Positions 977 through 19,580 of a DNA stretch of 23,071 nucleotides are shown in pieces. The notes under the pieces are model-generated. The model was not told the DNA's origin and did not search any database. It saw only the letters and a list, made by a program, of their open reading frames with translations. The position numbers were made by a program, and so were the translations under genes. The first letter of the stretch is position 1. Each line of letters opens with the position of its first letter. Origin of the DNA: a virus; IMG/VR virus record IMGVR_UViG_3300032331_002187, positions 1 to 23,071 of that record. One strand, written 5' to 3'.

Positions 977-1444
977 TCAGGGATTATTCCTGTCTACATT
1001 TGCCAGATGTGTTCTACGTCTTTTAGCACGAGCAGCGGCCTCCTTTCGCGCTGCATCTGCAAATGCTTTTGGATTTGCTTGAATTGCCGCACCAACAGCA
1101 TTTTGCTGCTCAGCACGTCTTGCTGCCTCATCTGCTGCAGGAGCACCTTCAACAATACTCTCTATCCACTCTCCACCCATGTTTGCCATGATTTGGAGTG
1201 CTGCCTCTTCATTATCAGCATATCCTTCATTGATTAGATGTGAGAGAATGATGTCGTAGAGGTCAGTTTCTTCTTTTCTTATGACATTTTTCATTTTTGG
1301 TCCTTTTATTGTTCCACCACCTTTAGGTCCACCCTCAGCATCTCGCATATCATAAGTATCCGATATTCTAGGACCCCTACCAGTTTCCTGTTCATAAACA
1401 TTCAAATATGCTTCTTGAAGATTGCGAATATCTTGGGAATTCAT
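977..1444 (-). CDS. MNS-family accessory protein A with EGYAD box
   Basis: This 155-aa protein has no function I recognise. Residues 1-19 (MNSQDIRNLQEAYLNVYEQ) match the N-termini of the proteins at 1521-2159 and 2797-3735. Residues 61-99 hold the shared box, with DLYDIILSHL, EGYADNEEAA, IMANM and ESIVE. The C-terminal 55 residues are rich in Ala, Arg and Lys (ARKEAAARAKRRR), which could bind nucleic acid. The box ends in I-V-E, which fits the (L/I)xE pattern cut by T4-type prohead protease, though that is only suggestive. The gene has its own late promoter at 1464-1471 and its own terminator at 921-945, so it is probably a late, single-gene unit. No clear Shine-Dalgarno sequence is seen. A capsid-packaged or host-modifying role is possible but unproven. 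Confidence 0.8.
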   Translation of the reverse strand: MNSQDIRNLQEAYLNVYEQETGRGPRISDTYDMRDAEGGPKGGGTIKGPKMKNVIRKEETDLYDIILSHLINEGYADNEEAALQIMANMGGEWIESIVEGAPAADEAARRAEQQNAVGAAIQANPKAFADAARKEAAARAKRRRTHLANVDRNNP

Positions 1445-1463: not shown

Positions 1464-1471
1464 TATTTATA
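1464..1471 (-). promoter_or_regulatory. T4-type late promoter for protein A
   Basis: The minus strand shows a perfect TATAAATA octamer about 20 bases upstream of the ATG at 1444. Its first bases are the end of the T-tract of the preceding terminator. The leader after it (CTAAAAAGTAGTTGTAAG) is nearly identical to that of the 3735 gene. Confidence 0.8.
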
Positions 1472-1495: not shown

Positions 1496-1521
1496 CAGTG
1501 TGCCAGTTTAGAAAGTGGTTT
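1471..1521. repeat. 51-bp direct repeat, copy 2 (terminator module)
   Basis: Second copy of the block at 921-971. The differences in the stem (932 and 943 versus 1482 and 1493) only exchange pairs allowed by G-U wobble, so the hairpin is preserved. The copy reaches the stop codon region of protein B. Confidence 0.9.
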
Positions 1522-2159
1522 CAGGCACCCTTTACTTTTGTGCGTGGGACAAATTTCTCCCAGTTGTCTCCGTGCTTTTTCTTCAATTCCTTAACTTTAT
1601 CATTTGCCCTATGGGCATCCGCAAGACTATGAGTGTTTCCAGGACTATCTGGATCCATAGATTCAACAATACTCTCTTTCCAATTGTCACTCATATTTGC
1701 CATAATAGCAAGGGCCGCTTCATTTGTATCAGCATAACCTTCGGCAACCAGGTGCTCCAAAATATGCTCAAACATATCTTTCCCACCCTTTTTAGGAACT
1801 TTGTTTCTTACTTTAAGTACCTGGCGGCCACCTTCTGCCCTCTCTTCCTGAGAAGCACCAGGTCTAAAACGACCCATCATTAATCTACTGTCTCTTTCAA
1901 CCTCTGCTTCTGGTCTTCCTCTTTCTTTATCAGCTTTACGCTGTGCTGATTCATGAGAAAGAGCGCTCAAACTAGTTCTTCTACCTTCATCGAGTTGAAT
2001 ATAATGCTCATACATCTCATCCCAAGTATAATCACTCAAATCATAACCTTCTTCGAGAAGATTATTGACCCAAGACTCGAATTCTAGTTTTTCTCTAATA
2101 TCGTTATCATATACTGCAAGATATGATTCTTGAAGAGTGCGAAATTCTTTTGAGTTCAT
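1521..2159 (-). CDS. MNS-family accessory protein B with two EGY modules
   Basis: This 212-aa protein of unknown function is paralogous to those at 977-1444 and 2797-3735. Residues 1-17 (MNSKEFRTLQESYLAVY) are the family N-terminus. Residues 28-53 hold an extra module, WVNNLLEEGYDLSDYTWDE followed by MYEHY. Residues 128-166 hold the shared box (ILEHLVAEGYADTNEAAL, IMANM, ESIVE). The two modules resemble each other (LLxEGYD... and LVxEGYAD...), so an internal duplication is possible. The region between them is highly charged (RKADKERGRPEAEVERD). The gene is flanked by its own perfect late promoter (2183-2190) and terminator (1471-1495). Similar N-termini and modules are, from memory, frequent in hypothetical proteins of marine T4-like phages. 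Confidence 0.8.
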   Translation of the reverse strand: MNSKEFRTLQESYLAVYDNDIREKLEFESWVNNLLEEGYDLSDYTWDEMYEHYIQLDEGRRTSLSALSHESAQRKADKERGRPEAEVERDSRLMMGRFRPGASQEERAEGGRQVLKVRNKVPKKGGKDMFEHILEHLVAEGYADTNEAALAIMANMSDNWKESIVESMDPDSPGNTHSLADAHRANDKVKELKKKHGDNWEKFVPRTKVKGA

Positions 2160-2182: not shown

Positions 2183-2190
2183 TATTTATA
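2183..2190 (-). promoter_or_regulatory. T4-type late promoter for protein B
   Basis: Perfect TATAAATA on the minus strand, 24 bases upstream of the ATG at 2159. The octamer contains the TAA stop codon of the preceding gene (2186-2188), so coding end and promoter share bases. Confidence 0.8.
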
Positions 2191-2455
2191 ATCCTTGTCT
2201 TTTTTGAGATTGTTTTTGCATTTGTGTTATTCTTGGAATATCCTGAGACAAAGGAGATTTTGGTCTGTAGTTAGTATGCTCGGGATATTTTAAAAGATGA
2301 GCTTCGGCACCTATTGCATCAGCAACTTCAGTATTTCCACTTGCCTTTGCTTTAGCATATCCAGTTTTTGTCATTTGAATTGCTGCCTTCCTACTATCAT
2401 AGTTTGGGGCATTTTCAATATCTGCTTCTGAAATAAACTGTTTAAAGGTTTTCAT
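2186..2455 (-). CDS. Small protein with capsid-targeting-like N-terminus (MKTFKQFISEA)
   Basis: An 89-aa protein of unknown function. Its start, MKTFKQFISEADIENA, closely resembles the capsid-targeting sequence of T4 internal head proteins (MKTYQEFIAEA in IPI and IPIII). That peptide directs the protein into the prohead and is removed by the gp21 protease after Glu in an (L/I)xE context. The I-S-E/A at residues 8-11 fits that cleavage rule. The remaining 79 residues are polar and basic (MTKTGYAKAKAS, QMQKQSQKRQGL), as expected of a DNA-associated internal protein. The ATG directly abuts the TAA of the upstream gene, which carries a similar N-terminus, so the two are probably translated together from the late promoter at 3756-3763. 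Packaging and injection are inferred from the N-terminal resemblance. Confidence 0.75.
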   Translation of the reverse strand: MKTFKQFISEADIENAPNYDSRKAAIQMTKTGYAKAKASGNTEVADAIGAEAHLLKYPEHTNYRPKSPLSQDIPRITQMQKQSQKRQGL

Positions 2456-2800
2456 TTACACATCAGTATATTTTGGTTTTTTATAATTACCCCGAATAAC
2501 TGGCATATTATCTGGATTTGAATTTTTGGGAGTTGATATTGGCATTTTTGCAGTGGGTTTGTCCATAATGTCTCTTTTTGCAATATCTTGAATAATATAA
2601 CCACCCCTGCCAGATAAATCAGATGCAGTTTTTCCAACATTTTTAGTTGTTTGTTTTATTGCATCAACTCCACGATTAAGTTGTGTTTTAATTTTATCAA
2701 TAATACTAGGAGATTTTATACCATTAGATGTTGATGGAAGAGCATCAAATGCTTTTCTTGAATTTTCAGATTCTAAAATAAACTGCTTAAAGGTTTTCAC
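2456..2800 (-). CDS. Small protein with capsid-targeting-like N-terminus (MKTFKQFILES)
   Basis: A 114-aa protein of unknown function. It starts at a GTG (2798-2800) that overlaps the TGA stop of the upstream gene as GTGA, typical of translational coupling. Residues 1-11 (MKTFKQFILES) are almost identical to the start of the next gene and resemble the T4 internal-protein capsid-targeting peptide; I-L-E/S would suit gp21-type cleavage. The body is basic, Ser/Thr/Asn-rich and lacks hydrophobic segments (SIIDKIKTQLNRGVDAIKQT). After the shared N-terminus the two proteins diverge, so the tag looks modular. A frame-shifted ATG at 2640 gives only a shadow reading frame and is not used. Confidence 0.7.
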   Translation of the reverse strand: MKTFKQFILESENSRKAFDALPSTSNGIKSPSIIDKIKTQLNRGVDAIKQTTKNVGKTASDLSGRGGYIIQDIAKRDIMDKPTAKMPISTPKNSNPDNMPVIRGNYKKPKYTDV

Positions 2801-3735
2801 TTTTGTCCGTAATATGCTCTTTGTTTTGCAATCGTTTTATTTGCGATATTCTGAGTTCCTTTATATCCAGGTTTTTGTTTTCCTGCTTTTACTAACCACT
2901 CATCAGCATCTTGTGCTTGGGATCTCATTTGATCATCCTTCATATCTGCAAAAGAAGGAACATCATAAGATGGTTTTCGGAATATACTGTTTGCAGTATC
3001 TGGACCGTATGGTTTTCTAGTAAGACTTCTAGGTGGAGTATATGGTTCTGGTTGTTGTTTTGGTTCTTTTTTTGGTCCAAAATTAATATTATAATCTCCT
3101 GGTGTTATTCCACCACTAGAATTAGAACTACCAGAATTAGAAGTAGATGAAGGTTTTGCTGCCATATTTTTCTGCCCAAGAGCAATAACTTGATCTTTAC
3201 TCATTCCAGATTTTTTCATTTTAGCATTACCACCACCTGCTTCAAAATCAGTCATTTCAACAATACTATCTCTCCACTCTTCACTCATATTGACCATAAT
3301 AGCAGTTGCTGCTTCTTCAGTATCAGCATATCCTTCATCAAGAAGATGTGAAAGGATTACATCATAGAGGTCAACTTCCTCAATCTTCATTCTATCTGCA
3401 GATCCTTGTTGAACTTTTGCAGTATTGTACCTAGATCTTTCATCTGCAGTAGGACCTGCTCCAACTCTAGATTGCTTATAAAGACCACGATCAATCGTTG
3501 TATCACCTTTAGAAATTTTTTCTCTTTGCGCTGGAGTAGTAGTCGTAAATGTTCCAGGAACAGGTTTGTTTGGTCCAACACCAATATCAGTTCCAGGTAT
3601 AGACAATGTTGGTTTTACTTTTACAGAACCAGGAACACCACCTTTTTGTGCAAGGACTTCTGCTTCATCAAGTTCTTGGGGAGCATAAACTTGAGTATAA
3701 GCTTTTTGAATAGCACGAAGTTCTTGGGAATTCAT
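2797..3735 (-). CDS. MNS-family accessory protein C with EGYAD box
   Basis: The largest paralogue, 312 aa, function not recognised. Residues 1-17 (MNSQELRAIQKAYTQVY) and the box at 122-160 (DLYDVILSHLLDEGYADTEE, IMVNM, DSIVE) match the proteins at 977-1444 and 1521-2159. The stretch between is Pro/Gly/Thr-rich and probably disordered. After the box come a Ser/Asn-rich linker (SSTSNSGSSNSSGG, near residue 190) and a Pro/Lys-rich tail ending in KQRAYYGQK. It lacks signal peptide and membrane segments. It heads a three-gene unit with 2456-2800 and 2186-2455, driven by the late promoter at 3756-3763. Co-transcription with two capsid-targeted candidates suggests, but does not prove, a shared late role in the virion. 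Confidence 0.8.
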   Translation of the reverse strand: MNSQELRAIQKAYTQVYAPQELDEAEVLAQKGGVPGSVKVKPTLSIPGTDIGVGPNKPVPGTFTTTTPAQREKISKGDTTIDRGLYKQSRVGAGPTADERSRYNTAKVQQGSADRMKIEEVDLYDVILSHLLDEGYADTEEAATAIMVNMSEEWRDSIVEMTDFEAGGGNAKMKKSGMSKDQVIALGQKNMAAKPSSTSNSGSSNSSGGITPGDYNINFGPKKEPKQQPEPYTPPRSLTRKPYGPDTANSIFRKPSYDVPSFADMKDDQMRSQAQDADEWLVKAGKQKPGYKGTQNIANKTIAKQRAYYGQK

Positions 3736-3755: not shown

Positions 3756-3763
3756 TATTTATA
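3756..3763 (-). promoter_or_regulatory. T4-type late promoter for the protein C unit
   Basis: Perfect TATAAATA on the minus strand, 21 bases before the ATG at 3735. It continues directly from the T-tract of the terminator at 3763-3798. The leader (CCTAAAAAAGTAGTTTTAAG) closely matches that of protein A. Confidence 0.8.
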
Positions 3764-9527: not shown

Positions 9528-9535
9528 TATTTATT
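9528..9535 (-). promoter_or_regulatory. Probable late promoter for uvsW (AATAAATA)
   Basis: The minus strand reads AATAAATA, one mismatch from the late octamer, 22 bases upstream of the uvsW ATG and just after a terminator. In T4 uvsW is a late gene, which fits. No good -35/-10 pair was seen. Confidence 0.5.
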
Positions 9536-10541: not shown

Positions 10542-11168
10542 TTATTTTTTAGGTGCAGGTGCAGTCTTTGCATTTGATGGTGAAGAAACTTGTGTATAGA
10601 CCATTCTTTTTCCCCATTTTTGAGGTGTGATATTTGTGCCAGCAATATCTTTTGTGATTTGTGGTGAAAGATCAAAACTAGTATCTTTATTCACATTACC
10701 AGTTTTTCCAAAATCTCCAACATCATTAATCTTTGCCTTAGTTTCTTTTGTTTTTGTTCCCTGTGGTTCTGCAGTAACTCTTAGCGTCGATCCATAGGGA
10801 ATTGAAGGTGCTCCACTTTGTCCTTTTGGTGCTTGACCCTCTTTATATTTGAATGGAACTGCAGCATTTCTGGTTTTCCAATTGTGAGGATCTCCAGTTG
10901 CTGTTACTGCATTTGGTGTAAAGGCATCTCCTGGTGCGTAAACACTTGCTTTTACTGGTTTCCAACCATATCTATTTTGCTCTGTATCACTATGTGCTCT
11001 TTGTGTAAACTTCCCAGTAGATTTATCGAGAACTCCTGGTTGATAGTTTTTATATGCAAGAACTTCTTTAGAAGGTTCTTTAGAAGGTTTTGGTTTAGTA
11101 GATTTTGCAACTAAATTCAAATCCTCTATAATATTTGCATCTTTACAAAATTGCTTATAGGATTTCAT
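10542..11168 (-). CDS. Protein with CTS-like N-terminus and possible RlpA-like double-psi barrel
   Basis: A 208-aa protein. The start MKSYKQFCKDANIIEDLN resembles the MKTFKQF / MKTYQEF capsid-targeting-like peptides, though the (L/I)xE cleavage residue is absent at the expected site. After a Lys/Pro linker, residues of about 75-185 read ASVYAPGDAF, TATGDP, IPYGSTLRVT, AKINDVGDFG and SFDLSPQI. The order and spacing recall RlpA / 3D-domain double-psi barrels (ASWYGPG... TA..G... LPFGTxVRVT... VxVNDRGPF... DLS). Such domains act on or bind peptidoglycan. The C-terminus is Ala/Pro/Lys-rich. The gene sits behind the gp23 terminator and a one-mismatch late octamer. A role in wall penetration is inference and the domain call is by eye. 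Confidence 0.65.
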   Translation of the reverse strand: MKSYKQFCKDANIIEDLNLVAKSTKPKPSKEPSKEVLAYKNYQPGVLDKSTGKFTQRAHSDTEQNRYGWKPVKASVYAPGDAFTPNAVTATGDPHNWKTRNAAVPFKYKEGQAPKGQSGAPSIPYGSTLRVTAEPQGTKTKETKAKINDVGDFGKTGNVNKDTSFDLSPQITKDIAGTNITPQKWGKRMVYTQVSSPSNAKTAPAPKK

Positions 11169-11187: not shown

Positions 11188-11195
11188 TATTTAGA
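11188..11195 (-). promoter_or_regulatory. Probable late promoter (TCTAAATA)
   Basis: One mismatch from TATAAATA on the minus strand, 20 bases upstream of the ATG at 11168 and directly after the T-tract of the gp23 terminator, the same layout as the perfect octamers at 1464 and 3756. Confidence 0.55.
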
Positions 11196-11245: not shown

Positions 11246-12640
11246 TCACATTAGGTTGTCAACACGAACTCTTCTGTAGTAACGATTAGAGTTCATCTGG
11301 ATGCGACCTGCACCAGCAGTAGTTCCTTCAGCGAATGGGTTAGCAACAATACCATATCTGGTCTTGAAGCCAATCTTGGGCTGGAAGGTGTCCTGACCAA
11401 CGGCACGAACCATTTGGAGAGGAACATATGGGCAGTAGAATAAACCAGCATCATAAGGGGAAGAACCCTTATAACCAACAACGTAGTATTGGTTAGAAGC
11501 AACGTTTGCCGAATAAGGATCGATATAAACACGATACTTACCTTGGAGGATACCAGCAAAAGTATTGCCAGTGTCATCAACATTGAGGTTAGCGTTAAGA
11601 GCTGGGGTGTAATCAAGAACACCTGCCATGGTGAGTGCCGAAGCAACGTCTGCCGAGCAGAGGATCATGTTACCCTTTCCTCTACGAGTTCTTTGTGCGA
11701 TTGCGTTAGCATCACGCTCGATTTGGAAGATAAGACCCTTGAACTTCTCAACTGACCAACGACCGTTGGAGTCAACGTCAAGGTCAAAAGTACCAGCGGT
11801 AGCAACGTTTGCTTGAGCACCAGACTCAGCAACGCCATAGATGGTACGGATAACTTCACGGTTGATTTCGGCAAGAATCTCTGTTGAGAGAATGTTTGCC
11901 AACTCAGCTTCTGCATTCAGACCGTGGATTGCCTTGAGGTCTTGTGCGAGTTCGAGCGAATACTCGGCCTTCAGAGCACGTGACTTAGCAGTAACGGTGA
12001 CTTTCTCGATTGAGAATGCCATTTCGTTGAAGTAGTCACCACTACCTTGACCAAGGTTTTCTGAGTCATCGGTTCTCATGCCCTGACCTACGTTGTAGGT
12101 AGTTGCAGTTTGACCCGACTCAGGATTTAGAAGACCTGGGTTTGTTCCACGTTGAGTAGTAGTACCAAGACCAACAGAACCACTGGTGAATCCGTTAGTA
12201 AGATTGAATCCGCTGTCCTGACCAGAGAATGCTGAATCTGCTTCGTTGAACAGAGCTTCAGTGCCGCTTTGGCTGTTGTATCTTGCACGCATTGCGAAGA
12301 TGAGTCCAGTAGGACCGTTCATTGGTTGAACGCCTGCGAGGTCATAAGCGACCAAGTTAGGCATTGCGCGTCTGATCAAGGAGATCAAAACAGGGTCGAA
12401 ACCTTGCATAGCGCCAGTGCTGCTACCACTAAGACCAGTGCCAGATGCAGTGCTGGTGCTAGTGAAGTTGGTTGGAGCTTCTGAAAGGAAAGTGTGCTCT
12501 TCACGGAGCTCTCTTTCTTGGTTTTCGAGCAGGATAGCGGTTACTGATCTGCGATGTGAATCTTGGATCGGATCCATTCCTTGATAATCAAGGATTGGTG
12601 CCCACTTCTCCTGCAATTGTTCTGCATTGAACATTTGCAT
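11246..12640 (-). CDS. gp23: Major capsid protein gp23
   Basis: This 464-aa protein forms the capsid hexamers; T4 gp23 is 521 aa and marine relatives are shorter. Signature text includes DPVLISLIRRAMPNLVAYDL, VQPMNGPTGLIFAMRARY, VTAKSRALKAEYSLELAQDL and the C-terminal KTRYGIVANPF. A likely gp21 cleavage site is FLSE/A at residues 51-55, removing 54 residues, which compares with 65 in T4. The start at 12640 has AGAGG nine bases upstream, supporting it over the second Met two codons later. An octamer one mismatch from the late consensus (TATAAACA) lies 37 bases upstream, and a strong terminator follows. Codons look more regular and less AT-rich than in the accessory genes, as expected for a highly expressed protein. 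Confidence 0.97.
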   Translation of the reverse strand: MQMFNAEQLQEKWAPILDYQGMDPIQDSHRRSVTAILLENQERELREEHTFLSEAPTNFTSTSTASGTGLSGSSTGAMQGFDPVLISLIRRAMPNLVAYDLAGVQPMNGPTGLIFAMRARYNSQSGTEALFNEADSAFSGQDSGFNLTNGFTSGSVGLGTTTQRGTNPGLLNPESGQTATTYNVGQGMRTDDSENLGQGSGDYFNEMAFSIEKVTVTAKSRALKAEYSLELAQDLKAIHGLNAEAELANILSTEILAEINREVIRTIYGVAESGAQANVATAGTFDLDVDSNGRWSVEKFKGLIFQIERDANAIAQRTRRGKGNMILCSADVASALTMAGVLDYTPALNANLNVDDTGNTFAGILQGKYRVYIDPYSANVASNQYYVVGYKGSSPYDAGLFYCPYVPLQMVRAVGQDTFQPKIGFKTRYGIVANPFAEGTTAGAGRIQMNSNRYYRRVRVDNLM

Positions 12641-12693: not shown

Positions 12694-13866
12694 TCACTTT
12701 TTAGAAACTCTACTCAGAGTTTGTAAATATGCTCCCATAATTCCAGAAACTTCTGGTTGTTGGAGTTGCACGTCTGTGCTTTCAGATAAATTCTCTGAGT
12801 CATCTCTTTGAGCACTAGTACCTCTAGATGGGAAATAAGATTCCCTTAAAGTTGCCAGTTTCTCACGATATTCTGCTTCACTTTCAAACTCAACATTTTC
12901 AGCGAGAGAAGCGAGTTTGTCCTTCTGAGAAAGTGCAAGACCCTCAGCGACATCTGCAAAAATTACATCAGCAACCGACTCTGCTAATCTTCTATTCAGA
13001 GCAACATTTCTTTGAATTTGCTCGTTGAGTTTTTCTTCCATTTCATCAAGTTTATCTACCATACTCTCGATTACATCATATCTATCTTCAGGGATTGAAA
13101 CATAATGATCTTCAAAAAGACCCTTCATTCCAGCAAGGAATGATTCGGTCATTTCGGTCTTAAGACCGTGCTCAACTGCGAGTGCATTCTCTTGAATCCA
13201 CTCGTCAGCAACATACTCAAGATAAGCATCAACACGGTCAGTAAGACCTTCTTTGATTGCTTCGATTTCTTCTACAAGTGCAACTTCATATGCTGCCTGT
13301 AGATCTTCTTTGATTTCAGCAACCTTAGATTTGATTGCTGCCTCAAAGATGGTGCGTGCTTTCTCTTGGAATTCCTCAGAAAGCTCCTCACCTGAAAGGA
13401 GAGCATTGACATCTTCTTCGATATCATACTCTTCCTTCATTCCACAATCATCTTCATCTTCCTTATCATCTTCATCTTCCTTATCATCTTCACCCTTTTT
13501 CTTTTTCTTTTTCTTGGGTGCGTCTTCTTCCTCATCATCTTCTTTAGCCGCTTCGAGGATTTCTTCTTCTTCTAGAACTTCCTCTTCGGTTTCAAATTCT
13601 TCCTTTGCAACACTCTTCATTTCTTCTGCTGCAGCGGCTTTTGCATTAACAACATTCTTGACTTGGGCAAGAGTTGCTCCAGGAGTGTTAAGTTTTGCGG
13701 AATCATCGTCTGGGCGATAATTGTCGACTGTAGGGCCTCCCAAGTCTTCCCAAGATCCAGTTTGTCCGGGAGCAATACCCGTGGACAACTTTTGCATTGG
13801 TTCAGCTTGTGCAGCGTCTTTGGTTACTACGTTTTCCATTTCTTGTAAATTGCTACCAACGGACAT
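12694..13866 (-). CDS. gp22: Prohead core scaffold protein gp22
   Basis: A 390-aa, very acidic, largely helical scaffold protein located between the protease and the major capsid protein, as in T4, where gp22 is 269 aa. Residues of about 80-150 are low complexity: ETEEEVLEEEEILEAAKEDD, then a run of seven Lys (PKKKKKKKGE) and DDKEDEDDKEDEDD. Residues of roughly 150-320 form a long charged helical region (EEFQEKARTIFEAAIKSKVA, MVDKLDEMEEKLNEQIQ). The C-terminus has PEVSGIMGAYLQTLSRVSKK, typical of T4-like gp22. The protein assembles inside the prohead and is degraded by gp21 on maturation; several (L/I)xE sites are present. It has a perfect late octamer at 13897-13904. Confidence 0.93.
   Translation of the reverse strand: MSVGSNLQEMENVVTKDAAQAEPMQKLSTGIAPGQTGSWEDLGGPTVDNYRPDDDSAKLNTPGATLAQVKNVVNAKAAAAEEMKSVAKEEFETEEEVLEEEEILEAAKEDDEEEDAPKKKKKKKGEDDKEDEDDKEDEDDCGMKEEYDIEEDVNALLSGEELSEEFQEKARTIFEAAIKSKVAEIKEDLQAAYEVALVEEIEAIKEGLTDRVDAYLEYVADEWIQENALAVEHGLKTEMTESFLAGMKGLFEDHYVSIPEDRYDVIESMVDKLDEMEEKLNEQIQRNVALNRRLAESVADVIFADVAEGLALSQKDKLASLAENVEFESEAEYREKLATLRESYFPSRGTSAQRDDSENLSESTDVQLQQPEVSGIMGAYLQTLSRVSKK
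13447..13492. repeat. 18-bp tandem repeat inside gp22
   Basis: The plus-strand unit ttatcatcttcatcttcc is repeated about 2.6 times, encoding DDKEDE units. The third copy is partial and the first has two mismatches. The period is a multiple of three, so copy-number changes would keep the frame. Confidence 0.8.
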
Positions 13867-13896
13867 TTTTGTTTTGATTGTGTTATAATCTATATT

Positions 13897-13904
13897 TATT
13901 TATA
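13897..13904 (-). promoter_or_regulatory. T4-type late promoter for gp22
   Basis: Perfect TATAAATA on the minus strand, 31 bases upstream of the gp22 ATG at 13866, immediately after the gp21 stop codon. A second element, AGATTATAACAC (13880-13891), lies between it and the gene. Confidence 0.75.
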
Positions 13905-13906
13905 AT

Positions 13907-14557
13907 TTAAAGATTTGAAAGAAAATCTTGGAACAATTCAACTTTATGTTCCTGAAGTGTTCTTTCATCAACTAATGTATTAATTCTACGTTGAGTTTGT
14001 TTGGCAAGTTTTTCACGAAGAATTCCACCTTCCCAAACCCACTCTTTACCTTCCATAATTCCCTGAACAAAAGCATCAGGAGCAGAAGGATCGGCAACGA
14101 TATCAGCAGCTGTTGCAAGCATAAAATCTGGTCCAACTACTTTATGACCTTCATTTGTCATTTGAAGTGATCCAACACCACGAGAAGAAACACCAAGGCA
14201 AACACCTTCACCAATCAGAGATTTTGCAATCTTTCCCATTGGAGTTTCGAGAAGTTGTGCCTTACCAATGAAATTGCATCCTTTTTGTTCGAGGGAAACA
14301 ATTTTATGAGAAACACGATCAAGATTGACGGTAGGTCCATCAGGATGACCGAGTTCTCCAAGAGCACGACCTTTGCAAATAAATGATTCATTATATCTTG
14401 CTACTTCACGAGCAAGAGTTTGCATTGGATACATTCTGCCATTACGATTGCAGATATCACCTTGAAGGAAAACTCCTTCAATGAACATTTTCTTTTGAGT
14501 ACCTCTTCCCTCGGTGATGAACTTAACCTGGGATACTTCTTCTGTGATGAGTTTCAT
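13907..14557 (-). CDS. gp21: Prohead core protease gp21
   Basis: A 216-aa serine protease; T4 gp21 is 212 aa. It cleaves scaffold, capsid and internal proteins after Glu in (L/I)xE contexts during head maturation. Visible elements: FIEGVFLQGDICNRNGRMYP at residues 25-44, GELGHPDGPTVNLDRVSHKI around 67-86 with His71 and His84 as candidate catalytic histidines, and GVCLGVSSRGVGSL near 118-131 with Ser124/125 as candidate nucleophile, as in assemblin-like proteases. The ITE sequences at residues 4-6 and 14-16 could be self-cleavage sites. The ATG begins one base after the stop of the upstream gene, so translation is coupled to the small genes before it. Confidence 0.95.
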   Translation of the reverse strand: MKLITEEVSQVKFITEGRGTQKKMFIEGVFLQGDICNRNGRMYPMQTLAREVARYNESFICKGRALGELGHPDGPTVNLDRVSHKIVSLEQKGCNFIGKAQLLETPMGKIAKSLIGEGVCLGVSSRGVGSLQMTNEGHKVVGPDFMLATAADIVADPSAPDAFVQGIMEGKEWVWEGGILREKLAKQTQRRINTLVDERTLQEHKVELFQDFLSNL

Positions 14558-14558
14558 T

Positions 14559-14825
14559 TTAGTTTGTGAATGCTACTTGATTTGCTTTAATTGCACTGTT
14601 TGTCCAAATAACATCTGTTGGAAGTTTTTGTAAAAATTCAACAGAGTATTGGGGAATAGTGAAAAAATTAGTCGTTGCTGCTCCCACTCTTGTATTGATT
14701 CCAACGGTAATAGAACCGCTGGTTGCATTACATAAACGAACACAAGTTGCAGAACTAATACTTGTTGCTGCACCAGATGAAGTTCCTGTTGTTTCTTCAG
14801 TAAGAATAATCTTAGTAATTTGCAT
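14559..14825 (-). CDS. Small beta-rich protein between gp67-like and gp21
   Basis: An 88-aa protein. It starts MQITKIILTEETTGTSSGAA and reads as alternating hydrophobic and Ser/Thr/Gly residues throughout (CVRLCNATSGSITVGI, FFTIPQYSVEFLQKLPTDVI), which suggests a small beta-sandwich. T4 gp68 occupies this position but is a helical core protein, so I do not call it gp68. Similar small proteins are known at this locus in marine T4-like phages, and a virion surface or decoration role is possible. The ATG overlaps the stop codon of the gp67-like gene by one base (TAATG), and gp21 begins one base after its stop, so all three are made together. Confidence 0.75.
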   Translation of the reverse strand: MQITKIILTEETTGTSSGAATSISSATCVRLCNATSGSITVGINTRVGAATTNFFTIPQYSVEFLQKLPTDVIWTNSAIKANQVAFTN

Positions 14826-15019: not shown

Positions 15020-15027
15020 TATTTATA
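15020..15027 (-). promoter_or_regulatory. T4-type late promoter for the gp67-like / gp21 unit
   Basis: Perfect TATAAATA on the minus strand, overlapping the stop codon of gp20 (15023-15025) and 25 bases upstream of the gp67-like ATG. It would drive the gp67-like gene, the 88-aa gene and gp21. Confidence 0.8.
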
Positions 15028-19572: not shown

Positions 19573-19580
19573 TATTTATA
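19573..19580 (-). promoter_or_regulatory. T4-type late promoter for gp18-gp19
   Basis: Perfect TATAAATA on the minus strand, 38 bases upstream of the gp18 ATG, in the 56-base gap after the gp17 stop codon. No terminator hairpin was seen between gp17 and this promoter. Confidence 0.8.

Follow-up and report, generated by a model that had tools for sequence, protein, structure and literature searches.

A T4-like cyanophage carries tandem genes whose products begin with a capsid-targeting-like peptide found before many unrelated phage proteins

INTRODUCTION

The closest described system is that of the internal proteins (IPs) of phage T4, which are basic and of about 8, 10, and 20 kDa (PMC9026906). 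The first ten residues of IPIII are enough for packaging. Mutations in IPIII have revealed that residues 4 and 7 govern targeting and residues 8 and 10 cutting, and that an aspartate at position 10 blocks cutting while targeting is kept; the cut by gp21 falls after L/I-x-E (PMC9026906). This capsid-targeting peptide (CTS) has been described for T4 and proposed as a general way of loading proteins (PMC9026906), and our literature search on capsid targeting and cyanophages yielded nothing beyond that review. In the T4 record, IPII and IPIII start with MKTYQEFIAE↓A (the arrow marks the cut) and IPI with MKTFKEF.

A second precedent comes from cyanophages. T4-GC190, a putative cytidylyltransferase and cyanophage core protein, has been found by mass spectrometry in purified S-SM1 virions (PMC3037559). 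Its start is MKKFSAFLNE↓A in S-SM1, MKSFSQFLTE↓T in P-SSM2, and MKSFGQFLTE in S-SSM7, and in S-SM1 it is the only ORF that fits a loose tag pattern. Such a CTS-like start would explain how a nucleotide enzyme from the replication region comes to be in the particle.

Here we analyze an IMG/VR virus fragment of 23,071 nucleotides (the window) in which two tandem genes, A and B, start in a similar way, and we follow their N-terminal tag through other phage sequences.

RESULTS

The window is a 23-kb piece of a T4-like cyanophage, the head region of which has its nearest relatives in Synechococcus phage S-SRM01 and Prochlorococcus phage P-SSM2. The main genes are all encoded on the minus strand, among them gp18, gp19, gp20, gp21, gp22, gp23, and gp3 as well as uvsY, uvsW, gp55, gp47, and gp46, with names based on PHROG and Pfam matches (gp21 and gp22) and on gene order in annotated relatives (Table 1). 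Past gp46 comes a variable stretch with N3, B, A, N2, and N1, followed by a "peptidase" gene at the window end; at the place after gp46, P-SSM2 has no tagged gene and S-SRM01 has another hypothetical protein. The gp21 protease that a first-pass annotation had reported in the window is indeed encoded there. Between gp20 and gp21, a small gene (14559-14825) starts with MQITKIILTE↓E, with an L-x-E at residue 10, and its leader is possibly another one that is cut, judging from these letters.

Table 1. Coordinates of the tagged genes, their neighbors, and related features in the window
Feature	Position	Strand	Description
N1	977-1444	-	155 aa, MNSQDIRNLQEAYLNVY..., EGYA domain ending SIVE; no clear LxE after module
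Late promoter of N1	1464-1470	-	ATAAATA
N2	1521-2159	-	212 aa, MNSKEFRTLQESYLAVY..., EGYA domain ending SIVE
Late promoter of N2	2183-2189	-	ATAAATA
Gene A	2186-2455	-	89 aa, ATG start, MKTFKQFISE↓ADIEN...
Capsid-targeting-like peptide of A	2426-2455	-	Residues 1-10; cut expected after E10
Gene B	2456-2800	-	114 aa, GTG start, MKTFKQFILE↓SENSR...
Capsid-targeting-like peptide of B	2771-2800	-	Residues 1-10
N3	2797-3735	-	312 aa, first operon gene, MNSQELRAIQKAYTQVYAPQELDE↓A start, EGYA domain ending SIVE
Late promoter	3756-3762	-	ATAAATA, T4-type, 20 nt upstream of N3; predicted to drive N3, B, and A
X	10542-11168	-	MKSYKQFCKDANIIE↓D..., 208 aa, between gp23 and gp3
Late promoter-like motif before X	11188-11194	-	CTAAATA
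gp23, major capsid protein	11246-12640	-	Own LSE↓A site, residue 54; site type as in A
gp22, head scaffold/core protein	12694-13866	-	Prohead-core partner to which the tags are expected to bind
gp21, prohead protease (Peptidase_S77)	13907-14557	-	Pfam PF03420, 7.2e-33; enzyme expected to cut the tags

Genes A and B are present as the two tandem ORFs that had been annotated, although the GTG start of B had gone unmentioned. Their starts had been read as a T4-like targeting peptide with an I-x-E at residues 8 to 10, and both do agree with MKTYQEFIAE↓A at positions 4, 7, 8, and 10, with F4, F7, I8, and E10 in each protein and a gp21-type L/I-x-E at the peptide end (ISE↓A in A, ILE↓S in B). Residues 1 to 8 (MKTFKQFI) and E10 are common to A and B. 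The first 30 bases are identical at 27 of 30, and the two tag DNAs form a 30-nt imperfect direct repeat on both sides of gene B. Past residue 10 there is no likeness between the products, again as the annotation had it. Cut after E10, A would be left with 79 aa (8.7 kDa, pI 9.5) and B with 104 aa (11.3 kDa, pI 9.9).

The body of A has relatives in three IMG/VR contigs only, and that of B has none in IMG/VR. Neither gave anything credible in Pfam, PHROGs, NCBIfam, or a tblastn search against 50,697 phage records, and comparison with the T4 IP families phrog_2667 and phrog_8765 revealed no whole-protein homology (E 0.11 to 0.19, N-terminal part only). For A, AlphaFold2 predicted a helical protein with low confidence (pLDDT 62), which is too uncertain for a fold search.

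The claim that A and B are late genes is upheld by promoter evidence from the sequence. The coding strand of the window has 11 copies of ATAAATA or CTAAATA and the other strand none, and 10 of these 11 motifs lie 19 to 37 nt before a gene start, against a mean of 0.38 in a gene-map-shift control. Behind the motif that precedes N3, the genes N3, B, and A abut or overlap. Further T4-type late promoters lie at 9528-9534, 13893-13903, 15020-15026, and 19573-19579, and the promoter in front of uvsW suggests, by its sequence, late expression of a recombination gene. Among mixed IMG/VR contigs, which differ in hosts and promoters, we saw no excess of late promoters before tagged genes (25% versus 24%).

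A third tagged gene in the window, X, had escaped the first-pass annotation. Its product follows the tag pattern in part (Y4, F7, C8, and D10, then IIE15): the targeting residues are kept, position 10 carries the residue that blocks cutting in T4, and a second I-x-E follows five residues on. Cut after E15, X would have a mass of 20.9 kDa, and the predicted pI values of mature A, B, and X range from 9.5 to 9.9. In size and charge, the three predicted mature proteins thus come near the basic T4 IPs of about 8, 10, and 20 kDa. At the place of X, S-SRM01 has a gene with a similar start (MKSFQQFQEDL) and a different body. We found 33 relatives of X in IMG/VR, with the tag on nearly all full-length members read. 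In this family the body (VLAYKNYQPGVLDK...) has one of two kinds of leader. Some members, among them L412, L414, and L416, have the canonical tag of ten residues (examples are MKTFSEFINE↓A, MKTFNEFIKE↓T, and MKTFKEFVTE↓S), and others have a longer leader in which a second I-x-E site comes later, e.g., IQE15. In most members a gp21-type site parts leader from body. The AlphaFold2 model of X (pLDDT 80) is a double-psi beta-barrel (RlpA/expansin-like). Foldseek matched it to 4avr (E 7e-5) and 8kea (E 2e-5), and VIA-align, over 94 to 102 residues, gave Z scores of 10.8 for PA4485 (4avr) and 10.5 for a cyanophage A-1(L) baseplate domain (8kea); the X profile had no sequence match among solved structures. 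Going by the model, X may act on the cell wall, as a candidate for an injected protein of this type.

A degenerate DNA pattern for MK[ST][FY]K[QE]F[FILM]xE matched at least 120 viral stretches in IMG/VR, and permuting the order of its codons left a single match. A looser protein motif, applied to ten phage genomes, retrieved 11 ORFs, from T4, P-SSM2, S-SRM01, S-SSM7, and S-SKS1, and 60 permuted motifs gave means of 0 to 0.05 matches per genome. This enrichment and the permuted-motif control exclude chance as the origin of the tag. The tag is not universal, since several T4-like genomes (KVP40, HTVC008M, Syn9, P-SSM4, and S-PM2) contain no ORF matching the tag patterns used. Some pattern matches are probably false; we discarded one tagged ORF with an HK97-type phage capsid match (PF05065; L271, by eye) as spurious.

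The first-pass annotation had called for a search for proteins that have only the start in common, and such proteins turned out to be plentiful: among the matches listed, a first scan of IMG/VR gave 83 tagged ORFs with a length of 40 aa or more, which fall into 36 unrelated BLAST body clusters, and a cruder k-mer clustering of the 228 ORFs of all fetched contigs gave 115. With only MKTFK[QE]F fixed, 43 of 55 body families have a glutamate at position 9 or 10, compared with a background of 14% at neighboring positions, and by this measure of sequence conservation the cut site of the tag is under selection. A Peptidase_S77 gene was present in 12 of the 50 contigs found with the tag (1.64 Mb). 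In the control set, which had been retrieved with a pattern of no relation to the tag, 3 of 39 contigs had one (1.66 Mb); that 12 of the 15 S77 contigs are on the tag side corresponds to a p of about 0.02 in a simple binomial test. T4-like genomes measure 150 to 200 kb and have about one gp21 each, and 12 S77 genes are about what one would find if almost every contig with a tag came from a T4-like phage.

Elsewhere, the PHROG matches of tagged ORFs bear the names internal head protein or internal virion protein (phrog_2667 and phrog_5341), or else virion structural protein. Others carry a SAM lyase (PF23780, 2.4e-17), an ART-PolyVal domain (PF18760, 1e-23), a DPBB lytic transglycolase (3e-12), or members of GNAT and methyltransferase families, and bodies of these kinds are the sort of cargo expected for delivery at the start of infection. 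The founding activity of the SAM lyase family is given in one account (PMC7877911) as a T3 counter-defense enzyme. CTS-tagged SAM lyases (PF23780) occur in several IMG/VR contigs (L036:1441-2154, L331:10542-11237, and relatives) and would be head-delivered anti-restriction enzymes. A CTS-tagged ART-PolyVal ADP-ribosyltransferase (L079:6037-6816) adjoins a second tagged gene, and in two contigs three to four tagged genes, the bodies of which are unrelated, form an array (L069:6502-9422 and L347:4676-6976); by eye, these genes include those for a metallopeptidase-like HELTH protein and ART-like proteins.

On the question of whether the tag also occurs on proteins known to stay in the cell, the protein to consider is T4 gp61.1, for which we know of no assigned location. 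Gene 61.1 (L226:567-731) encodes a 54-residue protein with the start MKTFKEFIKED, which has the CTS pattern. We know of no virion role for gp61.1, and on the strength of its start it is possibly an overlooked T4 internal protein.

Relatives of the locus differ at the tag itself. IMG/VR contigs L003 and L004 are 97 to 99% identical to the window, minus exactly gene B. In both, N3 runs directly into A, the start of which joins the upstream flank and GTG of B to the tag and body of A, and this places the breakpoint within the first 14 bases of the tag. In the more distant contig L005, the body of A stands behind tag DNA that is the same as the B tag for 29 nt. Taken together, the breakpoint in L003/L004 and the tag of B on A in L005 make the tag look like a cassette-exchange point, as far as these sequences indicate, and at this locus the 30-nt direct repeat of the two tags is a site of cargo gene loss, gain, or retagging. 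In a wider comparison for homogenization of tag DNA within contigs, pairs of tag DNAs from the same contig had a mean identity of 0.884 versus 0.842 (p about 0.03; only 11 pairs).

The flanking genes N1, N2, and N3 have their own common N-terminal module, MNSQ(E/D)(L/I)RxLQxAYxxVY, which in relatives usually ends in LDE↓A, and a common domain (phrog_3708) of the form DLYDIILSHLLDEGYADTEEAAxAIMxNMSEEWRxSIVE. A DNA pattern for the module found 37 IMG/VR stretches. An L/I-x-E lies within 8 residues after the ..AYxxVY core in 32 of 37 unique MNSQ proteins, compared with 6% in other sequence windows, and is most often followed by alanine. With the common EGYA domain masked, the bodies of the MNSQ proteins form 17 clusters, and S77 is present in 7 of 36 MNSQ contigs (0.70 Mb). 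The EGYA domain itself ends in IVE or IME, another gp21-type site, in 26 of 27 matched cases. Besides the window, contigs L005, L329, L330, and L347 have MNSQ genes near CTS-type genes. Judged by this pattern, MNSQELRALQEAYxxVY..LDE↓A is a candidate for a second peptide of the capsid-targeting kind, and a function in the core scaffold is just as possible.

DISCUSSION

A and B resemble T4 IPI, IPII, and IPIII in having a peptide of equal length and pattern with an L/I-x-E cut site, in being late genes that encode small basic mature proteins, and in the presence of gp21 and gp22 in the genome. They differ from the T4 proteins in that their mature bodies are unrelated, they belong to a cyanophage rather than a coliphage, and their genes form an operon with MNSQ-module genes near gp46; also, A and B are known here from genes alone. 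T4-GC190 of S-SM1, P-SSM2, and S-SSM7 is likewise a cyanophage protein with a CTS-like start, proven to be in the virion in the case of S-SM1 (PMC3037559), but unlike A and B it is a large enzyme with a different body, encoded in the region of the replication genes. The injected polyvalent/ART proteins and T4 Alt (PMC5512222) embody the same idea of a virion-delivered effector, and one tagged ORF has an ART-PolyVal domain. Polyvalent proteins, however, are large, multidomain, and not defined by this tag, and A and B are without such a domain. New in the present locus are the loss of gene B with a breakpoint in the tag DNA, the occurrence of A with the tag of B, and the second module on the flanking genes.

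Since A and B start with the label by which T4 packs and cuts its internal proteins, they probably travel inside the virion and enter the next host cell from it. We consider it quite probable that A and B, and with them X, belong to the internal head proteins of this T4-like cyanophage and are packaged, cut by gp21, and carried out with the DNA. Packaging and cleavage of A and B are likely; for these two proteins themselves we infer packaging, cutting, and injection, the last by analogy with T4. In the sequence of events that we propose, A, B, and X would be expressed late, and their first ten residues (notably the aromatic residue at position 4 and F7) would bind a gp22-type prohead core, such that the proteins become enclosed as the gp23 shell forms. 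The gp21 protease would then cut X after E15 and A and B after E10, leaving mature proteins, small and basic, that would remain in the head with the DNA and exit with it into the next cell. Given that the bodies of A and B have no detectable function, an anti-defense role for them is only a guess. Such a role is more plausible for the tagged class, because SAM-lyase and ADP-ribosyltransferase domains are found on tagged proteins, and by analogy with this class our best guess for A and B is a part in early host takeover or in the protection of incoming DNA.

Conceivably, the tag sends A and B to the prohead core for a purpose in head assembly only, as core filler or in size control, with no role after infection. 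T4 IPIII influences head morphology (PMC9026906), A is predicted to be helical, and N1 to N3, with their several L/I-x-E sites, resemble core-type proteins, all of which would suit such a role. On the other hand, close relatives (97 to 99% identical) do without B, bodies are swapped freely, and the tagged enzymes found elsewhere make no sense as filler, and we regard an exclusive assembly function as unlikely. We attach much less weight still to the idea that the tag is no capsid-targeting peptide and leads elsewhere, be it to the tail, the baseplate, or a host target. The match to the T4 head tag, the co-occurrence with the S77 prohead protease, and the L/I-x-E at the boundary all speak against this, even if the tag is carried by T4 gp61.1 and by several genes outside the head cluster and the detection of T4-GC190 leaves its place within the virion unspecified.

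The least credible proposal is that the common start reflects a recent duplication of a gene start without any targeting function. Such an event could account for the 27 of 30 identical bases in A and B and for the B-like tag DNA of A in L005, but not readily for the same peptide in front of 36 unrelated BLAST clusters, in many contigs and with synonymous differences in the DNA, nor for the retention of E at position 9 or 10 and the match to T4 internal proteins with proven targeting. The wide spread of the tag on unrelated bodies leads us to reject a functionless duplication.

More speculatively, and with the balance tilting somewhat against it in our own estimate, marine T4-like phages may employ a modular delivery code with at least two interchangeable N-terminal addresses that end in a gp21 site, i.e., the T4-type CTS and the MNSQELRALQEAYxxVY(x0-4)LDE↓A module of about 20 to 24 residues. 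Both would load changing cargo into the head, and the tag DNA would act as a crossover point at which cargo genes are gained, lost, or retagged. Should the tag prove dependable as an address label, the effectors that uncultured marine phages inject would be readable from sequence; the tagged ORFs sampled here comprise dozens of unrelated body groups, including a SAM lyase and an ADP-ribosyltransferase. With such a label, ordinary virion proteomics could test which proteins T4-like phages send in along with their DNA, a long-standing question, and the exchange of cargo via the tag DNA suggests how effector sets may evolve quickly.
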